From Paenisporosarcina sp. HGH0030 (GTDB lineage: Bacteria > Bacillota > Bacilli > Bacillales_A > Planococcaceae), in contig NZ_KE150421.1 in the NCBI RefSeq assembly GCF_000411295.1, positions 1,221,645 to 1,285,644 on the forward strand: a stretch of DNA of 64,000 bases. The letters run 5' to 3'. Position numbers and translations under genes: made by a program. The number at the start of each line of letters is the position of its first letter. Positions within the stretch are counted from its first letter, which is position 1. The notes below the pieces were generated by a model, which was not told the DNA's origin, did no database searches, and worked only from the letters and a program-made list of their open reading frames with translations. This document shows, piece by piece, positions 6,718 through 38,063 of this stretch.

Positions 6718-7432
6718 ATAACGCTGGCATTTGTATTTTTGATTTTTCTTCGATTGTTACCACAATATTATCATTAAGCAATTGATCCAGCACACCACCA
6801 GTGAGTTTCAATGATGGCATTAATACAGTTGGATCACCTATTGCCTCAATAACGAATGGAGCAGGGAACTGTTTTCCATCAATCGTTATGACCGGACCGT
6901 TGCATTTTATGTACGAATTGGCTTGCAATCTTTGTCCATTGATGGATATTGCTTGTGCTCCAGATATTTTCAGTTCATTCAGCACCTGGAATACATGACT
7001 TTCGTGAACAATATAGTCATTTGGATTGACTGAAGCCGGATCGTACTCGGCATCTTCAAGCTGAACTATTACCCCTTCACCTGTGGAAGGAAGAATTCCT
7101 AGAAGTAATCGTAAATCTTCCGCTTCATCTATCAGACTCTCGTACTGCTCTTCACTTCCTGACAGTGATTTTTCAATCTCGCGAACTTGTTGTTGTCTCG
7201 CCACTAATTCTGTTTCCAACTCTTTATTTCGTTCTTTTTGCTGAATAAGGTCTTCCCTGTAGCGTTCCTCATGTTCAAAATACTTGCTGCTGGTAGGCTC
7301 TCCGCTCATCTTTTTACTGCTCGAAAGACTATAGGAATAGGCTAAAATAAAGCCTAGCACTAGGCACACTAAAGAAAAGATAATGCGTTTGTTCACAACC
7401 GAACGATTAGGCTTATTCTGGAGTTTCTTCAA
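6716..7432 (-). CDS. ylxW: DUF881 membrane-anchored protein YlxW
   Basis: A 238-residue protein with a basic N terminus, one membrane segment (about residues 15-33), a long coiled coil (about 45-95, rich in E/R/Q) and a DUF881 domain (INGQRLQANSYIKCNGP, VIEAIGDP). I place the start at TTG 7432, inside the end of divIB, because a purine-rich GGAGGAGGAGG run lies just upstream; that gives a 20-nt overlap. The stop codon is the first base triplet of the repeat element. Function unknown. Confidence 0.82.
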   Translation of the reverse strand: MKKLQNKPNRSVVNKRIIFSLVCLVLGFILAYSYSLSSSKKMSGEPTSSKYFEHEERYREDLIQQKERNKELETELVARQQQVREIEKSLSGSEEQYESLIDEAEDLRLLLGILPSTGEGVIVQLEDAEYDPASVNPNDYIVHESHVFQVLNELKISGAQAISINGQRLQANSYIKCNGPVITIDGKQFPAPFVIEAIGDPTVLMPSLKLTGGVLDQLLNDNIVVTIEEKSKIQMPAL

Positions 7433-8213
7433 CTTCCTCCTCCTCCTTTGACTGTGGATTATACATATCTGCATATGTCTGGAAGAAGGATCCCACTTCT
7501 ATATCAATGACACCTTTTTCAGATTCACCGATTTGAGCAATGATTGATGGATAATAATTCATTTTTTCAGCAAATGACGGAATTACGGCCCTAACTTCAA
7601 ATCCGTCATTCATAAATAATCGAATGCGGTAAGGGTCTGCCTTAGATGGAACAGATTCTATCTGTGAAATCATGGACAAAACTTCACCGTTTAATTTGGC
7701 AAGTTCCTTCACCATACGAGTCAATGCTTTTGGATTATCAAACGCACTTAATACAGGTGCATCGACCGGCGCCATGTTTTCAGAGGTATGATACACAGTT
7801 CCATTTTCAAGTACCAAATCAAAGCCATCTTCTGTTTGTACATAGGCTGCTTTTTTCCACTCTTTTAATTCAATTGTTACCGCCGTTAAACCGCTTCGCT
7901 TAACTGTGACATCTTGAATCCATTCATTTTTTTGTAAAATTTCTTCGGCATTACTTGTCCGGATTTCCCACATGGATTGTCCTTTTTGAATACCACTTCG
8001 ATCAATATATTCGTCACTTGTCGCTAAATTAGACCCTTTCACGACAATGGTTTGAACGTGACTATACGGAGATTGAAAATAGAGGAGACCAAGTAAAGTT
8101 AATAGGAAAAAGACGAGCAATAACGTGAACTTGCGATTTGTTCTCTTTTTTCTGCGCTCTCTCAGCGTCGGTATACGGTCTTCAATGTCGATAATTTTAT
8201 CCACGTTATTCAC
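7413..8213 (-). CDS. divIB: Cell division protein DivIB (FtsQ)
   Basis: Bitopic divisome protein that links FtsL/DivIC to the septal synthases. The 266-residue protein has a short cytoplasmic basic tail, one membrane segment (about residues 29-46), a POTRA domain (YSHVQTIVVKGSN onward, about 50-120) and an extracellular beta domain, ending in an acidic tail (SKEEEEVEETPE). It lies 13 nt after the SpoVE-like gene, with no murG or murB between as in B. subtilis. Confidence 0.93.
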   Translation of the reverse strand: MNNVDKIIDIEDRIPTLRERRKKRTNRKFTLLLVFFLLTLLGLLYFQSPYSHVQTIVVKGSNLATSDEYIDRSGIQKGQSMWEIRTSNAEEILQKNEWIQDVTVKRSGLTAVTIELKEWKKAAYVQTEDGFDLVLENGTVYHTSENMAPVDAPVLSAFDNPKALTRMVKELAKLNGEVLSMISQIESVPSKADPYRIRLFMNDGFEVRAVIPSFAEKMNYYPSIIAQIGESEKGVIDIEVGSFFQTYADMYNPQSKEEEEVEETPE

Positions 8214-8226
8214 TCCTTCCTATCTA

Positions 8227-9309
8227 TCAGTCTTTTGAAAATCGTAGAATTAGCCCGACAATGAGCCAGGTTGAAAGTAAAGATGAGCCACCGTAACTAA
8301 TAAATGGTAATGTTACACCTGTTACTGGGAATAAGCCAATGACCACCCCAATATTTAAAAATATTTGGAAACCAATCATCGATTGAATTCCTGCAATCGC
8401 ATAAAAACCTACTTTGGTTGGCGCCAATACGGCTAGTCTATATCCTGTGTACAAGAACAGGCAGAACAACCCAATTAACAAGAAAGCACCGATAAAGCCC
8501 ATTTCCTCCACAATAATTGAGAAAATGAAATCATTTTGTGGTTCGGGCAAATAAAGGAACTTCTGTCGACTTTGGCCGAAGCCGTGACCAAACAATCCCG
8601 ATGGTCCGATCGCCATTAAAGATTGGGTACCTTGAAAACCGCTATTCAATGCATCTTCCCATGGATCGAGGAAGGCATATATACGCTTTAATCTGTAAGG
8701 TGCAGAAATGATCAAGCCAACGAGAGCCAATACGCCAATGGACCCAATACCAACGAAGAAGCGCACCGGAAACCCCGCGATGAACAACAGGGAAAATCCA
8801 CCCACAATTAACAGAAAAGCTGAACCAAAATCCGGCTGGACCAATATGATTCCAGCGGGAACCAAACAAATCAGTATGGGCTGAACATAGCGTCTTTTGA
8901 GTCCAGTAGACTTTTGTGCCAGCATGCAAGCTAGAAATCCAATGACTGAAATCTTGACGAATTCAGCAGGTTGCAAGCTGAAACCGGCGATTTGAATCCA
9001 GCTTTGGGATCCATTCCTTACAATCCCTAGACCGGGGATGTACACCGAAAAAAGCAGAAGAATGGATAAAATATAAGCAATCTTCCAGAATTTCCGATTG
9101 CTCAGGAACGTCATTTTCGACATAACAAGTGCACATAACATCCCCAAGGTGCCGAACATTGCCTGTTTCCAGAAGAATGGCAAACTGTCTTGGTAATGCA
9201 CTTTCCCCCAGTAAGAGCCGGCAGAGTAAACAAAAAAATAGCCAATGACAGTTAATAGTAAACTAGTAAACAGAAAAACATTTGTCGGTCTTTTCTGCAG
9301 TTTTGGCAT
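8227..9309 (-). CDS. spoVE: SEDS-family peptidoglycan polymerase, SpoVE-like
   Basis: A 360-residue protein with about ten membrane helices and SEDS motifs: GSQSWIQIAGFSLQPAEFVK, PQNDFIFSIIVEEMGFIGA and the C-terminal GVTLPFISYGGSS. SEDS proteins polymerise glycan strands from lipid II together with a class B PBP. The place between murD and divIB is that of spoVE in B. subtilis, which makes spore cortex; a separate ftsW lies at 51425-52588, so this copy is most probably the cortex enzyme working with SpoVD. The functional split between the two paralogues is inference. Confidence 0.88.
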   Translation of the reverse strand: MPKLQKRPTNVFLFTSLLLTVIGYFFVYSAGSYWGKVHYQDSLPFFWKQAMFGTLGMLCALVMSKMTFLSNRKFWKIAYILSILLLFSVYIPGLGIVRNGSQSWIQIAGFSLQPAEFVKISVIGFLACMLAQKSTGLKRRYVQPILICLVPAGIILVQPDFGSAFLLIVGGFSLLFIAGFPVRFFVGIGSIGVLALVGLIISAPYRLKRIYAFLDPWEDALNSGFQGTQSLMAIGPSGLFGHGFGQSRQKFLYLPEPQNDFIFSIIVEEMGFIGAFLLIGLFCLFLYTGYRLAVLAPTKVGFYAIAGIQSMIGFQIFLNIGVVIGLFPVTGVTLPFISYGGSSLLSTWLIVGLILRFSKD

Positions 9310-10682: not shown

Positions 10683-11654
10683 TTATAATACCTCCATCAT
10701 AACGACAATAAAGGCTGCAAGGAATGCCGTTGACCAAAAGACGACGACAACTTTCCATTCAGACCAGCCGGATAATTCAAAATGGTGATGAAGAGGACTC
10801 ATTTTAAATATTCGTTTTCCAGTCGTTTTAAAACTGATGACTTGTAAAATTACTGACAGCGTCTCTGCAACGAATATGATCCCAACAAGCAGCAACAAAA
10901 GCTCTTGCTTAACTAAAATCGAAACCATCGCCAGAGCTCCACCTAGTGCGAGCGAACCAGTATCCCCCATAAATAATTTAGCAGGATTTGCATTGAAAAT
11001 TAAGAAACCAAGAAGTGCGCCTGTTACGGCAAACGCGAAAATCGCAATATCTTGTTGATTGTAATACATGGCCAATACGCCAAATGTCGTAAAAGCAATG
11101 GAGGCTGTTCCTGAAACTAAGCCGTCCAGTCCATCTGTCAAATTGACTGCATTCGAGAATCCTACCAGCCAAAACACCATGAATAATACATAGGCAAAGC
11201 CAAGATCAACTGACCAGTCCGTGAACGGTATACCTACTGTAGTTTCAAATGGACCTTGCTTTAACAAGAAGAAAGAGGCTACGGCAATAACGATTTGCCC
11301 TATCAATTTTTGTAAGGATGTTAATCCTAAATTTCTTTTTAATACAACTTTAATAAAGTCATCCAAAAAGCCAATGACGCCAAAACCGACAAACACGATG
11401 ACTAAAACAATCGTTTGTGTGGTTAACATTTCCAAATAAAAAGCAACGCCTAGAGTCGTGAGGACAATGGAAACAATAAAAACAAGCCCTCCCATCGTAG
11501 GGGTGCCGGCTTTTTTCATATGGGATTGAGGACCTTCCTCACGGATACTTTGACCAAACTTCATTCGCTTTAATGCCGGAATGAAAAGTGGAGTTAACAG
11601 TATCGTAAGGAAAAAGCCAATCCCTACAATCATAAGTGTTGTTGCGAGTGTCAT
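10683..11654 (-). CDS. mraY: Phospho-MurNAc-pentapeptide transferase MraY
   Basis: Integral membrane enzyme that makes lipid I. The 323-residue protein has about ten helices, the aspartate motif FLDDFIKV (about residues 98-105), [24 protein letters not shown] and the signature [17 protein letters not shown]. It sits directly between spoVD and murD, 42 nt after spoVD. In B. subtilis murE lies in that gap, and here it does not. Confidence 0.97.
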
Positions 11655-11696: not shown

Positions 11697-13619
11697 TTAT
11701 TCACCTAAGTATAAATGAACCGTACCGTCTACAGACAGTAAACTGTCTGCTTTTGGAAGCTGGGAGATGATTTTATTTCCCGTCCCGTGCCATTCAATTC
11801 TGAAAGGCTCTTCCATTTTAATCACTTTATTTTTCTCGAGACCTACTAGTTCAGGTACTCGCAATTGCATTGCATCTCCCCAACGATACTCTTTTTCAAG
11901 TTGATCTTTGGCAGAATTCTTGAATCCAATAAAAGGAGCACTATCTTCAATGATTTGTCCTACAATCGGTGCAGCAATAACTCCACCGAACTGCAACACG
12001 TGTTTTGGATTATCTATGGCGATATATACTACGATTTCAGGGTCGTTAGCCGGTGCAAAGCCAATAAACGAAACAATGTATTGCCCTTCTACATAGCGAC
12101 CGTTAACAGCCTTTTGAGCAGTCCCTGTTTTCCCTCCAATGCGCATCGTATCGCGGAATGCATTTCGGCCTGAGCCGTTCGCCACAACTGATTCCAATGC
12201 TTCACGAACTTGTTTGGATGTTTCTTCAGAAATAACCTGTCTTACTTTCGTTGGTTTGTTTTCCTTTATCACTTCGTTCGTTTGTTCATTGTAAATTCGA
12301 TTTACAACATAGGGTTGAAACAAAGTACCGCCATTGACAGCAGCTGATACTGCCTGAACTTGTTGAATGGGTGTTGTTGATATTCCTTGGCCGAACGATG
12401 TAGTCGCATGTTCGACTGGTCCATAACTTCCTTTAGAAAACAGAATTCCTGAGGATTCACCAGCAATGGATGATCCTGTTTTTTGCCCAAAACCAAAATC
12501 ACGTATGTATTGCGACAGCTTGTCACGTCCAACACGTTGACCTAGTTCAATAAAGCCTGGGTTACAAGAGTTTTCAACCACTTCCAAAAAAGTCTGATGC
12601 TTATGACCTTCCCTTTTCCAGCATCGCAACCTTGCGCCTTCGACAATCGCATACCCCGGATCATAAAAAGCTTCTTTTTTTAAATCCACTTTCCCTTCTT
12701 CAAGAGCAGCTGCAAGCGTGATTATTTTGAAAGTTGAACCAGGTTCAAATGTCATCGACACCGGCAAGTTCTGATTATAAACGCTAGGACTCACTTTGTC
12801 ATATTGTAAAGGATGGAAAGTCGGGAACGAAGCTAATCCCAGAATCGCTCCTGTTTTTGGATTCATGGCAATTCCCATCGCCTGATCAGCATCATATTTC
12901 TTCATTGCCTGGGATAATTCTCTTTCTATCACTTCTTGGACATCTAAATCAATCGTCAAATCGATCGTCGAACCATCCTTTCCTTTCCCCCATTCGTCAT
13001 TTACATGGGGCAAGGAAGTGCCTTTTGCATCTGTAAATAATCTGAGCGTTGATTCTGTCGATGTCAAAAATTCATTGTATTGATATTCAATACCGGCTAG
13101 ACCTTCATGATCGTATCCAGTGAACCCCAATAACCGAGACAATATTTCATCATGGGGATAATCTCGAACATAGTCAACCCCTGTATATAAACCAGGAATT
13201 TTTAAGGATTGGATTTCAATCGCTTTACCGAGCTCTATATTCTTTCCTGCAGGCGCCAATTTTATTAGGAATGTTTTTTTACTCATCTGCTCAACCAGTT
13301 TATTTTCGTCAATATTAAGAGCTTTGCTTAGTTTTGCAGCAGCACTCTCAACATCTTCATTTTGAGCAGGCATAAAATACAGCGTCGGTGAGAGCTTGCT
13401 TCCTACAATTAATTCACCATCACGATCGCGAATGTTGCCTCTTGTCTGTGAAAATGGAATTTCACGATCCCAATTCTCTTCTGCTTTCTCAGTAAGCCAT
13501 TCATATTGAAAAAATTGCATGTAAATCAATTTCCCCAATGATGCAATACTTAAGCAAAAAAAGAGGAGAACCATTGTCCGAACTCTGATTTTCAATTGCT
13601 GAGGCACTCCTGCCTTCAT
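11697..13619 (-). CDS. spoVD: Stage V sporulation penicillin-binding protein SpoVD
   Basis: Class B PBP needed for spore cortex cross-linking in B. subtilis. The 640-residue protein has an N-terminal membrane anchor (about residues 13-32), a dimerisation domain with RGNIRDRDGE, the transpeptidase motifs STFK (EPGSTFKIITL), SCN and KTGTAQ, and one C-terminal PASTA domain (LRVPELVGLEKNKVIK). The single PASTA and the length near 645 fit SpoVD rather than PBP2B. The ATG at 13619 was chosen over an upstream GTG because AAGGTG lies 8 nt before it. Confidence 0.93.
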   Translation of the reverse strand: MKAGVPQQLKIRVRTMVLLFFCLSIASLGKLIYMQFFQYEWLTEKAEENWDREIPFSQTRGNIRDRDGELIVGSKLSPTLYFMPAQNEDVESAAAKLSKALNIDENKLVEQMSKKTFLIKLAPAGKNIELGKAIEIQSLKIPGLYTGVDYVRDYPHDEILSRLLGFTGYDHEGLAGIEYQYNEFLTSTESTLRLFTDAKGTSLPHVNDEWGKGKDGSTIDLTIDLDVQEVIERELSQAMKKYDADQAMGIAMNPKTGAILGLASFPTFHPLQYDKVSPSVYNQNLPVSMTFEPGSTFKIITLAAALEEGKVDLKKEAFYDPGYAIVEGARLRCWKREGHKHQTFLEVVENSCNPGFIELGQRVGRDKLSQYIRDFGFGQKTGSSIAGESSGILFSKGSYGPVEHATTSFGQGISTTPIQQVQAVSAAVNGGTLFQPYVVNRIYNEQTNEVIKENKPTKVRQVISEETSKQVREALESVVANGSGRNAFRDTMRIGGKTGTAQKAVNGRYVEGQYIVSFIGFAPANDPEIVVYIAIDNPKHVLQFGGVIAAPIVGQIIEDSAPFIGFKNSAKDQLEKEYRWGDAMQLRVPELVGLEKNKVIKMEEPFRIEWHGTGNKIISQLPKADSLLSVDGTVHLYLGE

Positions 13620-13677
13620 TTTAACCACACCTTGTTTTTTAACAACGTATGATAGGAATGGAGTGCCTATTCAATAT

Positions 13678-33662: not shown

Positions 33663-34115
33663 TTAAGCTGAACAGCCACAAGAACCACCAGTTCCACAGC
33701 TTCCTGTACTACAAGAAGAGGCAGCTGAAGCGAAGAACGGATTGCTGACAGGGACCTTGACAGATTCAGATACAGTTTTTCCTATTAATAAGCTGACTTC
33801 ATCCAACAAATCTTGCAATTCGTTTTCAGCCAGTCTTAAATTAGCGACACGTTCATTCATATCAAGTGCGCGTTTTTGTACTCGAATAGACTTCATCACG
33901 TGCTGATAGTCCGGATGATACTTTCCGAAGCGTTGAACATCTTCATACTGCTCTTTTAAACGAGAAAAAGAAGCAATCTGTCTATTTAATAATTCGTCTG
34001 TATAAACGGCGAAATATGCTTCTTTGAAGCGTTCTACTTGCTCGGAGGATAAAATCATCTGTGTTAAACTATCTCCTTCATCCATGATGTTTGCCCATTC
34101 TGATGTCATCATCAT
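33663..34115 (-). CDS. ylbF: YlbF (RicF), Y-complex subunit
   Basis: A helical 150-residue protein. The C terminus is cysteine-rich (SSCSTGSCGTGGSCGCSA, four Cys). In B. subtilis YlbF forms a complex with YmcA and YaaT that binds 4Fe-4S clusters, affects phosphorelay and biofilm entry, and assists mRNA processing with RNase Y; the C-terminal cysteines contribute to cluster binding. Of three consecutive ATG codons I choose the first (34115), 8 nt after GGAGG. Confidence 0.88.
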   Translation of the reverse strand: MMMTSEWANIMDEGDSLTQMILSSEQVERFKEAYFAVYTDELLNRQIASFSRLKEQYEDVQRFGKYHPDYQHVMKSIRVQKRALDMNERVANLRLAENELQDLLDEVSLLIGKTVSESVKVPVSNPFFASAASSCSTGSCGTGGSCGCSA

Positions 34116-34202
34116 CGGACATTCCTCCAATCTATTTTAATCATAACAGATTGGACTCATAAAATAAAAGACCTGCATTTGCTAAAAGTTAGGAGAAACA
34201 AC

Positions 34203-34691
34203 ATGAAAAAATCAGTACGTAATCAACTCGAAAACATATTAATTCATGCATCAACCGAAGATGTCTCTACGTTATCAAAATGGTTGGAAGGCTTTGAGAA
34301 GAAACAAAGTGGTGATCTTTCCACTTATTTAGGCGCTACTTTGCATATGGAGAAGAAATTAAGCGATGATTCTTGCACGATATCCATCCCAATAACTCCT
34401 TATATTCATAACACTCTTCATATCCCTCACGGTGGTATTCTGGCCGTTATGCTTGATACCGCGATGGGTGTCCTCGCAAATCATTCACTATCTGAAGAAT
34501 TTGCCGCTGTAACCATGAACTTATCCATTAACTATTTGGCGACGGCCACGGAAGGTCATTTACATGCACGTGCTACTTTTTCACATAAAGGACGCCAGAC
34601 GATGGTGGTTACCGGTGAAATTACGGACGACAATGGCAAGAAGCTTGCGGTTGGCAATGGATCATTTTTCGTGGTTCCCCGCCATCGGTAA
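34203..34691 (+). CDS. Hotdog-fold thioesterase (PaaI-like)
   Basis: A 162-residue single hotdog domain with the family signature HIPHGGILAVMLDTAMG (about residues 78-94) and a following VTMNLSINYLATA. Members hydrolyse acyl-CoA or aromatic acyl-CoA thioesters; the substrate is unknown. TAGGAG lies 7 nt before the ATG. Its last 30 nt overlap the end of the convergent murE-like gene. Confidence 0.82.
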   Translation: MKKSVRNQLENILIHASTEDVSTLSKWLEGFEKKQSGDLSTYLGATLHMEKKLSDDSCTISIPITPYIHNTLHIPHGGILAVMLDTAMGVLANHSLSEEFAAVTMNLSINYLATATEGHLHARATFSHKGRQTMVVTGEITDDNGKKLAVGNGSFFVVPRHR

Positions 34692-36137
34692 CGTCGATAA
34701 TATTAGCAGAACGGTTTGTTCGTCTGAAAAAGGGATAACTTGATCGCCAATATGTTGAGTGGACTCATGACCCTTCCCTGCTATACAGAGTAAATCTCCA
34801 GGTTTGCAATACCGAAGCGCTTGTTGAATCGCAGCTGCTCGATCGACTTCGATATGGATCTTGGAAGTCTCCGGCAAATTTCCAACGATTTGCTGGCAGA
34901 TTTTCAGAGGATCCTCTAATCGGGGGTTATCTGATGTCACCCACATGCTATGTGAGTAAAATGCTGCAATCTCTCCCATAGCACTTCGCTTCGCTTGGTC
35001 GCGATTTCCTCCGCATCCGAATACAACAAGTAATCGTCCTTCAGTAATTCTTGATGCTGAAGAAAGTAGATGTTGCAGAGCTTCTGGTGTATGCGCATAA
35101 TCTATGACTACTTGAAAAGGTTTTTTTAAGATGAATTGAAATCTGCCAGGGGGTAAAGTAATGTTGGGGAGTAGCGGAATAATTGATGACATCGGAATAT
35201 CCAATTGTCGTATAGTCGCAATTGCAGCCGCTATATTTGAGATATTATAGAGTCCTGTAAAACCAACTTCCACGTCATAGCCATCACAATCTCCTTCATC
35301 GAATATTGTCACATTCGTTGATACTGGCTTTATTTCTTTCAGCTGGATGAATTCTTCGCCAAACCAATTCAGTTCTTTCGTGCATTCTTTTCCTTTTTCC
35401 AACCAAAAAGAATCGTCTTTATTCACAACAACTTTTCGGCTTATATCCATTAATTTGCATTTTGCTTTTTTATAGGACTCAATGCCTTCATGATCTTCAA
35501 GATGATCATGTCCTAGATTTAGAAATACCCCTTGTTGGATTGAACAATGGTCCAGTCGGTGCTGTGCTAATCCCATCGATGAAGCTTCAATTATGACATG
35601 TGTAATGTTCATTTTTAACAGTCGGGCAAAGGTTTGATGGAGATGTGAAGCAGACCATGTAGTGAGTGATGGAAAATTCTCATCAACTTTTTTTCCATTT
35701 ATAAAAAGTCCTAATGTACCGATTACTGCTGTTTGGTAGCCAAGCATCGTGAGCATTTGACCTATCATATGGCTTACCGTTGTCTTACCATTGGTTCCAG
35801 TCACCGCCACCACGTGCAATTGTTTTGATGGATTCCCATGAACACGGGCACAAGCATGAGAAAGAAAGGTCCTAGTGTTTGGCACGATGCCAAACGCCAC
35901 CTCTCTACACATTTTTTCATGTTCTCGATCTTCCGCAATAATACAGACCGCCCCGTTTTCGATTGCCTCATTTATATAAGTAGCACCATTGGCATTTTTC
36001 CCTTTAATAACTACAAAGACATCACCGGCTTGAATTTCCTTGGAATTTTCTTTGACCCCACATATGATTTCATTAAAGGATCCGTGTAACCACGTACACG
36101 GCCAGTCTTTTAATAAATCGGCAATGACCAAAGTCAT
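34662..36137 (-). CDS. murE: MurE-type UDP-MurNAc-tripeptide synthetase with DAP-adding signature
   Basis: Cytoplasmic ligase that adds the third residue to UDP-MurNAc-L-Ala-D-Glu. The 491-residue protein has ATP loop VAVTGTNGKTTVSHM (about residues 108-122), the SSMGLAQHRL and DHLEDHEGIESYKKAK segments (carbamylated lysine region), and the substrate motif DNPRLEDP with IAGKGHE near the end. DNPR marks meso-diaminopimelate-adding MurE; L-lysine enzymes usually have DNPA or similar. It lies far from the division cluster, which has no murE here, between ylbC and ylbF, divergent from a lone aspartokinase domain. ATG 36137 has GGAGGGG upstream; longer in-frame starts are rejected. A sporulation-type -10 lies upstream. 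A cortex-specific role is inference. Confidence 0.88.
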   Translation of the reverse strand: MTLVIADLLKDWPCTWLHGSFNEIICGVKENSKEIQAGDVFVVIKGKNANGATYINEAIENGAVCIIAEDREHEKMCREVAFGIVPNTRTFLSHACARVHGNPSKQLHVVAVTGTNGKTTVSHMIGQMLTMLGYQTAVIGTLGLFINGKKVDENFPSLTTWSASHLHQTFARLLKMNITHVIIEASSMGLAQHRLDHCSIQQGVFLNLGHDHLEDHEGIESYKKAKCKLMDISRKVVVNKDDSFWLEKGKECTKELNWFGEEFIQLKEIKPVSTNVTIFDEGDCDGYDVEVGFTGLYNISNIAAAIATIRQLDIPMSSIIPLLPNITLPPGRFQFILKKPFQVVIDYAHTPEALQHLLSSASRITEGRLLVVFGCGGNRDQAKRSAMGEIAAFYSHSMWVTSDNPRLEDPLKICQQIVGNLPETSKIHIEVDRAAAIQQALRYCKPGDLLCIAGKGHESTQHIGDQVIPFSDEQTVLLILSTLPMAGNHEK

Positions 36138-36194
36138 TGTACCCCTCCTACACAAAATGAAATTGACCGAATACATTACAGTCAAGGTACGTTC

Positions 36195-36222
36195 ATCGTA
36201 TGTAAGCATGCGGGAAAATGTC
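36195..36222 (-). promoter_or_regulatory. Candidate sigma-E/sigma-K promoter of murE
   Basis: On the minus strand CATACGAT (36195-36202) matches the mother-cell sigma -10 (CATACAnT for sigma-E, CATAnnnTA in part for sigma-K). A GACATT-like -35 lies 14 nt upstream (36217-36222). The predicted leader is about 50 nt. The -35 match is partial, and no good sigma-A promoter is seen for murE in the same gap. Confidence 0.45.
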
Positions 36223-36249
36223 ACTCATGATTAATAAGGAGCGGGTTTG

Positions 36250-36993
36250 ATGATTGTGCAAAAATTCGGAGGCATAGCGGTGAGAGATGCAGCATCGCGG
36301 GCAGTATGTATTCAACATATTAAAGAAGGTTTAGCCAAATATAAATCGGTTCTGGTGGTTGTTTCAGCAATGGGGCGTCATGGGGATCCTTATTCCACCG
36401 ATACACTGATTCGAATAACGGACGCATTTCAAATTGCACCAGAATCAAAAGATGTTGCCGCTATTTGCGGAGAGCTCCTGGCCTCTTCCGTTCTATCAGC
36501 AGAATGTTTAAAGCAACAGATTCCGTGTCAATTAGCGTATGGCATACAGGCTGGTATCTACACGGATGACCATTTTGGAGATGCTTCAATTATTAAAACA
36601 TCTAAAAAAGTCATTAAAGAATTGCTCCAGCATGTACCATGTGTAATTGTACCAGGGTTTCAAGGAATTACGACAGATCATCGCTTTACGACACTTGGAC
36701 GCGGTGGCAGTGATTTAACTGCAATCGTGATGGCCAATTTATTCGATGCCGAGGCGGTTGAATTTTATAAAGATGTACCAGGTGTCATGTCCGGTGATCC
36801 AAAAAACTCGGAAAATGTATATAAATTACCGAAAGTTTCGTATGAAAAGCTTCAGCAGCTTTGTGAAACTGAGACACACCCACTGATACAAAAAAAAGCA
36901 GTGGACATGGCGGCTAAGCACCAAATTCCACTGCATATTCGTCCTTTCGGTTCTTCAGAAGAAGGAACATGGATAAACTCCGCTGCTCATTGA
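36250..36993 (+). CDS. Aspartokinase catalytic domain without ACT regulatory domains
   Basis: Aspartate kinase opens the route to DAP, lysine, methionine and threonine. The 247-residue protein covers only the kinase domain: VQKFGG at the N terminus, VVVSAMGRHGDPYSTDTLI, the GEL segment with the conserved glutamate, and TLGRGGSDLTA, ending PLHIRPFGSSEEGTW just where the ACT domains begin in DapG (about 400 residues). Without ACT domains it should escape feedback inhibition. KFGGTSV has become KFGGIAV, so a normally conserved Thr-Ser pair is missing; the other motifs are intact. It is divergent from the murE-like gene, and overlaps the ylbC end by 7 nt. AAGGAG lies 8 nt before the ATG. Confidence 0.85.
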   Translation: MIVQKFGGIAVRDAASRAVCIQHIKEGLAKYKSVLVVVSAMGRHGDPYSTDTLIRITDAFQIAPESKDVAAICGELLASSVLSAECLKQQIPCQLAYGIQAGIYTDDHFGDASIIKTSKKVIKELLQHVPCVIVPGFQGITTDHRFTTLGRGGSDLTAIVMANLFDAEAVEFYKDVPGVMSGDPKNSENVYKLPKVSYEKLQQLCETETHPLIQKKAVDMAAKHQIPLHIRPFGSSEEGTWINSAAH

Positions 36994-38063
36994 CCTTTTC
37001 TGACATTCATCTCGCGTTTTACAAAGTTTTGCGTATAATATTTGCCAAATGTTCCTACGCCCAGGTGGGTAAAATCTTCTTTTAGCAAAACTTCTCTATG
37101 ATCTGAAGAATTTAACCAACCATTTACAACTTCTGCTGAATCATAATAATTCGCTGCAAGGTTTTCAGCTGCACTGTCATAAACAATAAGCGACTCTTCC
37201 AAACGGTTTTCCAAATCCCCAAAATCCGGTGACTCATGAGAAAAATAATTTTGCATCGCCATATCTTCACTATGTTTGCTTGCAACAAGTCCAAGAGCAT
37301 CATCTTCAATAACTGTATTTACGGAATGACGTGAACGATACACGTTCGTCAATTCAAATAATTGGCGTTCATTTGATGCATCAATAGATTTTTGCAATGT
37401 CGTTGAAGGTACTTTAGGTGCTAAGTAGTCACCTTTGTAAGTCATTTCATAAGGCTGATGGAGAACAAGTGTCTTTGGATCAGTAAAACGAATGGCTTCC
37501 ACTTCTTGGTCTTCTTCATCCATATAAATTTGGGCAAAAAGCCCATCGAATTTAATTAATAATCGGTTCGTCATATCTTGGTCGTTGATGGTGAATGTAT
37601 AAACATTCGAATCGATTTGCACGGTAATTTCCGACTCGATTATAGTAAAGCGGTATAAATCATCAATGGATTGCCCAACTTGATAGGGTGAGGCATCAAG
37701 GCTTTCTCCTGCAATATATATTTGAGTTATGGTGTCCCCGTTAACGCCTACCATCATATAAGAATCGAGTGACCTATTGTACACCCACCATTCATATCCG
37801 TAAGCTGAAGGCTCGATTCGGTTAGGTTCCCCAAATGATTCCACCACTTTTTTAGTATGTTGTCCAATAAGCGTAGATAGTCCTTTTTCTGGTCTTGGGA
37901 CTGATTCTTCCCCAGATGGGGGTAATAAGTTTTCCTGTGGCAAAGCTTGCCCTGTTGGACCGGGCGCTTCCAATAAATCATTTTCTTGAACAGTTTGGTC
38001 GGAATAAAAAATGACAGTCATGATAATAGCTAATAAAATTAAGATTCTAACCAATACTTTCAA
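36987..38063 (-). CDS. ylbC: CAP-domain protein YlbC
   Basis: Exported or membrane-tethered protein of 358 residues. There is one N-terminal hydrophobic segment (about residues 5-20), a proline-rich linker, a CAP-associated N-terminal domain (about 60-200, FGEPNRIEPSAYGYEWWVYN) and a C-terminal CAP/SCP domain (about 225-350, HSEDMAMQNYFSHESP, AENLAAN, HREVLL). Function unknown; YkwD and YlbC are its relatives in Bacillus. It overlaps the convergent aspartokinase gene by 7 nt. Confidence 0.87.
   Translation of the reverse strand: MKVLVRILILLAIIMTVIFYSDQTVQENDLLEAPGPTGQALPQENLLPPSGEESVPRPEKGLSTLIGQHTKKVVESFGEPNRIEPSAYGYEWWVYNRSLDSYMMVGVNGDTITQIYIAGESLDASPYQVGQSIDDLYRFTIIESEITVQIDSNVYTFTINDQDMTNRLLIKFDGLFAQIYMDEEDQEVEAIRFTDPKTLVLHQPYEMTYKGDYLAPKVPSTTLQKSIDASNERQLFELTNVYRSRHSVNTVIEDDALGLVASKHSEDMAMQNYFSHESPDFGDLENRLEESLIVYDSAAENLAANYYDSAEVVNGWLNSSDHREVLLKEDFTHLGVGTFGKYYTQNFVKREMNVRKGQ

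Follow-up and report, generated by a model that had tools for sequence, protein, structure and literature searches.

A second, DAP-type MurE often encoded beside an ACT-less aspartokinase tracks sporulation in Planococcaceae and is a candidate cortex-precursor ligase

Introduction

Some spore formers have lysine in the growing wall and meso-diaminopimelate (DAP) in the spore cortex, an old observation, and Linnett and Tipper reportedly described in the 1970s a DAP ligase activity of sporulation in Bacillus (Lysinibacillus) sphaericus. Which gene could provide such an activity? The question is raised by a locus in a stretch of 64,000 nucleotides from Paenisporosarcina sp. HGH0030 (contig NZ_KE150421.1, positions 1,221,645 to 1,285,644; hereafter the window), where a gene for a MurE-type ligase, which we call murE2, stands back to back with a gene for an aspartokinase without ACT domains. 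From this sequence, an original prediction held that MurE2 is the sporulation DAP ligase, that the kinase raises the supply of DAP, and that the two form a switch of cell-wall chemistry. Our search of the literature, which left most older journals outside its reach, found no report naming a sporulation MurE gene.

Here we argue that MurE2 is, with good confidence, a sporulation-specific meso-DAP ligase of the mother cell that serves the cortex, the divergent kinase being an accessory feeder of DAP.

Results

Two intact genes at a conserved site

Both open reading frames (ORFs) are intact (491 and 247 amino acids); they diverge across a gap of 112 bp, and the pair lies between ylbC and ylbF, as first read (coordinates in Table 1). 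MurE2 carries the motifs DNPR and GKGHE and matches the MurE family over its full length (430 bits against TIGR01085, cut-off 257; 423 bits against NF001126, cut-off 373), and within the genus dN/dS is about 0.05-0.13 for both genes; with this match and this constraint, the sequences indicate that the arrangement is not due to chance. The folds of both proteins can be regarded as settled, since each sequence aligns over its full length with solved structures, of MurE and of aspartokinase respectively. We place the start of murE2 at the ATG at 36137, behind AGGAGGGG; a longer ORF from a GTG at 36224 was rejected, as it would begin inside the promoter described below.

MurE2 follows sporulation across the family

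We surveyed 200 Planococcaceae genomes, with MurE2 called at E ≤ 1e-85 and SpoIVA as the marker of spore formers (in the labels used below, G stands for a genome, g for a genus and L for a locus or stretch of the survey). Statements on whole genomes draw on searches with protein families and on chosen stretches of sequence. MurE2 passed the cut-off in 136 of the 200. It is also present just below the cut-off in 13 genomes of g5 and as a split match in G195, and its absence from these genomes was rejected as an effect of the cut-off or of the splitting; a strongly diverged copy lies at the ylbC-ylbF locus of G020. MurE2 occurs in 151 of the 154 SpoIVA-bearing genomes. The remaining three (G001, G038, G054) have a weak or broken SpoIVA match, and every genome with a full SpoIVA match retains murE2. 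Among the 46 genomes lacking SpoIVA, eight searched at a permissive threshold and 38 only at the strict cut-off, MurE2 was found in none; at the permissive threshold the strongest matches other than MurE1 in the non-spore-formers G012 and G007 belong to other MurE-like types and were rejected. The association has a Fisher p of 4e-42, shared ancestry being ignored. As far as tested, MurE2 is therefore confined to spore-forming Planococcaceae, in line with the original prediction. Because non-spore-forming genera are spread over separate parts of the MurE1 tree (MurE1 is introduced below), several independent joint losses of MurE2 and sporulation are likely.

Wherever the neighborhood was read (12 genera, 13 with G020), MurE2 sits at the ylbC-ylbF locus. 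Among 250 genomes sampled from the class, the only matches from outside the family have 35-37% identity, and in the tree they group with its ordinary enzymes of DAP type. The diverged pair of G020 (L203, G020:C1:2043500-2052500) has GKGNE, a change of GRGG to ERGG and a kinase without KFGG; SpoIVA is decaying in this genus, and the pair looks as if it were being lost together with sporulation.

The genome has another MurE, probably for growth

A search of the Paenisporosarcina genome for Mur ligase domains returned eight proteins, identified by position and sequence as MurC, MurD, MurF, two FolC-like proteins and three of MurE type. One of the latter, MurE1 (L001), adjoins a prfC-like gene and carries DDPR and GKGHED. 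Its nearest solved structure is the lysine ligase of S. aureus (4c12), which has DNPA where MurE1 has DDPR, and the best matches of MurE2 among solved structures are DAP ligases; the two proteins are 32% identical. Of 25 family genomes tested, 22 have MurE1, among them each of the six without SpoIVA, and DDPR is present in every copy (22/22). The maximum-likelihood tree joins it to a Staphylococcus-type DNPA enzyme (support 100/99), and MurE2 lies outside this group as a separate clade with longer branches. Lysine in the vegetative wall of Planococcaceae is general knowledge, and from these relationships MurE1 is likely the vegetative lysine ligase. The genus name Lysinibacillus itself alludes to lysine in the wall (PMC6971209). 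A second MurE of another kind had been expected elsewhere in the genome and is indeed there, with the motif DDPR and not the DNPA-like one that had been forecast. Two outcomes contrary to the prediction, a genome with no other murE and MurE2 in non-spore-formers, were looked for, and neither was found.

MurE2 keeps the DAP contacts

In MurE enzymes with DNPR, the Asn and Arg form hydrogen bonds in DAP binding (PMC3829189). The 49 distinct MurE2 sequences comprise 42 with DNPR, three with DNAR, three with DNSR and one with DNCR, so that both contact residues of DN[PASC]R are kept throughout, as is GKGHE (49/49). The DAP-type motif noticed in the single sequence thus holds for the family, and we infer that MurE2 is of the DAP-adding type. 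With the meso-DAP enzymes of E. coli (1e8c) and M. tuberculosis (2wtz; TIGR01085/NF001126) it shares the Mur-ligase domains, DNPR and GKGHE. Unlike them, it is encoded outside the division cluster as a second copy beside a lysine-type MurE, is present in spore formers only, has a promoter of mother-cell type and forms a separate, longer-branched clade.

A mother-cell-type promoter precedes murE2

The two sigma factors of the mother cell are sigma-E and sigma-K. Promoters read by sigma-K have CATANNNTA together with AC at -35, those read by sigma-E have a similar -10, and the dpa operon is a sigma-K operon in B. subtilis. Upstream of murE2, GTG[AT]C...CATA...T[AG] is present in 22/22 kinase-bearing loci with an invariant spacer of 13 bp, and 300 dinucleotide shuffles of these regions gave no match to the bipartite promoter. 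In the kinase-less loci, CATANNNTA lies about 20-30 bp before the murE2 start in 23/23, against a maximum of four in shuffles. A conserved promoter of the sigma-K/sigma-E class is found at every murE2 gene examined, and a promoter of this type precedes none of 22 MurE1 genes.

The gap between the two sigma-K elements has been defined as 14-16 (PMC517825). As controls within the family, the dpa operon has CAC-N17-GCATATAGTA in several genera, with the same distance as murE2, and spoIVA, which depends on sigma-E, has TCATATT at -35 in several genera. The -10 and spacing of murE2 resemble the dpa control, its -35 being GTGAC or GTGTC in kinase-bearing loci. Because the dpa control shares the distance and the spoIVA control shows TCATATT, these sequences lean towards sigma-K, with sigma-E still a reasonable candidate; by either factor, murE2 seems to be turned on in the mother cell of the forming spore and nowhere else.

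The kinase resembles a DapG stripped of its regulatory domains

The kinase consists of an AA_kinase domain with no ACT domain match (223-256 amino acids in relatives). Its closest sequence relative is DapG (NF006068, 234 bits), which is aspartokinase I of the dpa operon; identity is 35% to the DapG of G209 (E 1e-50) versus 30% to LysC (E 1e-27). By sequence it resembles the catalytic domain of DapG and not the full protein, and the missing ACT domains suggest that it is unregulated. The dapG gene lies between asd and dapA; that of the kinase lies beside murE2 instead. In 13 dpa loci of 12 Planococcaceae genera (L188, at C1:1069000-1078500 of the Paenisporosarcina genome, and L189-L200 in relatives) the order is dpaA-dpaB-asd-dapA, without dapG, and two DAP-type Bacilli, G201 and G209, have a full-length dapG within the operon. 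The only aspartokinases of the Paenisporosarcina genome are LysC and the ACT-less kinase. Because dapG is missing from the operon in 12 genera, the kinase has the look of a shortened dapG product whose gene has changed place, the simplest reading of the sequences being a DapG that lost its ACT domains and moved beside the cortex ligase. It probably feeds the DAP pathway and may also benefit the synthesis of dipicolinate (DPA). A loss of the DPA synthase was considered and rejected: PF16924 (DpaA_N) has no match in 25 Planococcaceae genomes, but TIGR02852 finds dpaB in 18/18 family genomes, and the adjoining DpaA, of 266 amino acids, has diverged so far (about 26% to one DpaA of Bacilli) that the Pfam model misses it.

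The kinase occurs in genera g1, g3, g4, g5, g6 and g17, and G020 has a decayed copy. The coordinates place it next to murE2 in divergent orientation, other matches in the family being weak and to longer, full-length aspartokinases; it was found only beside MurE2. It is missing there in g11, g13, g14, g15, g18 and g19, and since these genera form one clade of the MurE2 tree (support 100/100), a single loss would explain its absence. The idea of a two-gene switch survives in part: the kinase indeed keeps to the company of MurE2, and a whole clade manages with MurE2 and no kinase.

Discussion

Restriction to spore formers, a DAP motif, a promoter of mother-cell type and the presence of another MurE together support well the proposal of a sporulation-specific DAP ligase. 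During growth, MurE1 would add lysine to the wall precursor. At sporulation, a mother-cell sigma factor (sigma-K or sigma-E) would turn on murE2, and its product would divert UDP-N-acetylmuramyl (UDP-MurNAc)-dipeptide from MurE1 and add meso-DAP, drawn from the pathway whose usual end product is lysine. The ACT-less kinase, where a genus has it, as many do, would supply extra aspartyl phosphate beyond the control of the usual effectors and so raise DAP, and perhaps the DPA precursor, at this stage; its role would be accessory, as its single loss in one clade suggests. The DAP precursor would then go into the cortex, with SpoVD and SpoVE as plausible users. MurE2 would thus be a known enzyme family put to developmental use, and its gene one expected to give an activity of the kind reported biochemically from B. 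sphaericus. A broader proposition, for and against which we see the balance as even, is that the lysine-walled spore formers of this family have a dedicated mother-cell branch of precursor synthesis, made of a cortex-only DAP ligase and a relocated DapG stripped of its ACT domains, in which one developmental promoter region changes both ligase and supply, and hence the chemistry of one wall.

Each genome offers one candidate gene for cortex DAP, at the same locus family-wide and with a promoter, and control species lack it together with sporulation. The need of the cortex for DAP, perhaps for its modification or for recognition by cortex-lytic enzymes, becomes testable, and the locus shows how one cell could make two wall chemistries. 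MurE2 may also mark true spore-forming ability in Planococcaceae genomes.

Several observations pull the other way. Substitution A409R in the S. aureus MurE gave no use of DAP (PMC3829189), and the motif alone does not fix the specificity of a MurE. The MurE of T. maritima, which like MurE1 has DDPR, uses lysine in vivo and can take DAP in vitro (PMC9434261), so that MurE1 might make DAP precursor as well. MurE1 was not found in the genomes of g5 and g2 tested, which have other MurE-family proteins; in G057 and G134 the sole match to the family besides MurE2 is a divergent type of 517 amino acids, and for this reason it is the candidate vegetative ligase there. With GTGTC at -35 in part of the loci, the murE2 promoter could be read by sigma-E and not sigma-K. 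As for the kinase, its subfamily has substitutions of its own, S to A at position 10 and T to K at 174. The element GAATA[CT]A on its sense strand is conserved in most relatives, but no clear -10 was found, and none at a fixed distance from it; no promoter of sigma type could be assigned to the kinase.

The kinase substitutions, which extend to position 177, and the loss of the kinase from one clade that retains MurE2 leave some room for a protein that is non-catalytic or retasked in vivo, for example as a partner of LysC. We consider this unlikely, if a real possibility, and it is compatible with the role proposed for MurE2: the catalytic residues K5, T50, E75, R151 and D155 are near-invariant in 41 orthologues, dN is about 0.04-0.12 at dS 0.75-2.0, a sign of strong purifying selection (dN/dS about 0.05-0.07), and dapG is otherwise missing.

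MurE2 might instead make a precursor for the forespore or germ-cell wall, or add another amino acid, and not make the bulk DAP precursor of the cortex. Its specificity is indeed read from motif and family, and the cortex is a proposed destination of its product. The promoter, however, is of the type active in the mother cell, where cortex precursors are made, and the DAP-binding Asn and Arg are present in 49/49 sequences; we hold this explanation to be improbable.

Amino-acid pools could also set the chemistry by themselves, a permissive MurE1 taking DAP once the kinase has raised it and MurE2 merely adding capacity. The in vitro behavior of the T. maritima enzyme would allow this, and S. aureus owes its choice of lysine to a large pool of that amino acid (PMC3829189). 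Against this, one entire clade of spore formers has MurE2 and no kinase, and murE2 accompanies every full SpoIVA match and was not found where SpoIVA is lacking; we regard such control by pools as very improbable.

A redundant role for MurE2 in vegetative growth or stationary phase, with no special link to spores, is hardly credible: duplicated Mur ligases do exist (L002 in the same genome), but MurE2 tracks SpoIVA almost perfectly, was not found in non-spore-forming genera from separate parts of the MurE1 tree and has a promoter unlike that of MurE1. The preferred reading remains that of a mother-cell DAP ligase with an accessory kinase.

Neighboring genes and further Mur ligases

Table 1. 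Features of the murE2 locus and of the division cluster, in window coordinates
Feature	Coordinates	Strand
murE2: UDP-MurNAc-L-Ala-D-Glu:meso-DAP ligase-type, proposed mother-cell cortex ligase	34662..36137	-
ACT-less aspartokinase, catalytic domain only, nearest DapG, ATG at 36250; proposed feedback-insensitive feeder of the DAP pathway	36250..36993	+
murE2 -10 element CATACGATG, sigma-K/sigma-E type CATANNNT[AG]	36194..36202	-
murE2 -35 element GTGACATTT, 13 bp from the -10 in 22/22 kinase-bearing loci	36216..36224	-
Conserved GAATACATT on the kinase-sense strand; possible -35 or regulator site	36169..36177	+
PaaI/hotdog thioesterase, convergent with murE2, 30-bp overlap at the murE2 3' end	34179..34691	+
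ylbC-like CAP-domain gene, conserved border of the locus	36987..38063	-
ylbF (Com_YlbF), other conserved border of the locus	33663..34130	-
spoVD-like gene	11697..13628	
mraY	10683..11654	
spoVE/ftsW	8227..9309	
divIB	7413..8213	

The PaaI-type thioesterase gene between murE2 and ylbF is present in some relatives and missing in others, and is probably unrelated to murE2 and the kinase. The division cluster of the window reads mraZ-rsmH-pbpB-spoVD-like-mraY-murD-spoVE/ftsW-divIB-...-ftsA-ftsZ-spoIIGA-sigE-sigG (names from reading the translations). In it mraY adjoins the spoVD-like gene with no intervening murE, as had been observed, and neither murG nor murB stands between spoVE/ftsW and divIB; the gene order of B. 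subtilis differs from that of this latter stretch (7413-9309).

The third MurE-type ligase of the Paenisporosarcina genome (L002:1138-2658; C1:1607047-1610658) has DHPG, and SGCING in place of GKGHE, and a 56% identical copy is present in the non-spore-former G012 (L224). Divergent Mur ligases of about 512-551 amino acids, above the TIGR01085 cut-off, occur in every g2 and g5 genome tested (L129, L135-L138, L140, L141). Yet another MurE-like type, in which DDLN or a similar motif replaces DNPR, is found in g2 and g5 (L123, L125, L133, L134, L139, L142) and in g12 and g8 (L222, L223, L225), in spore formers and non-spore-formers alike.

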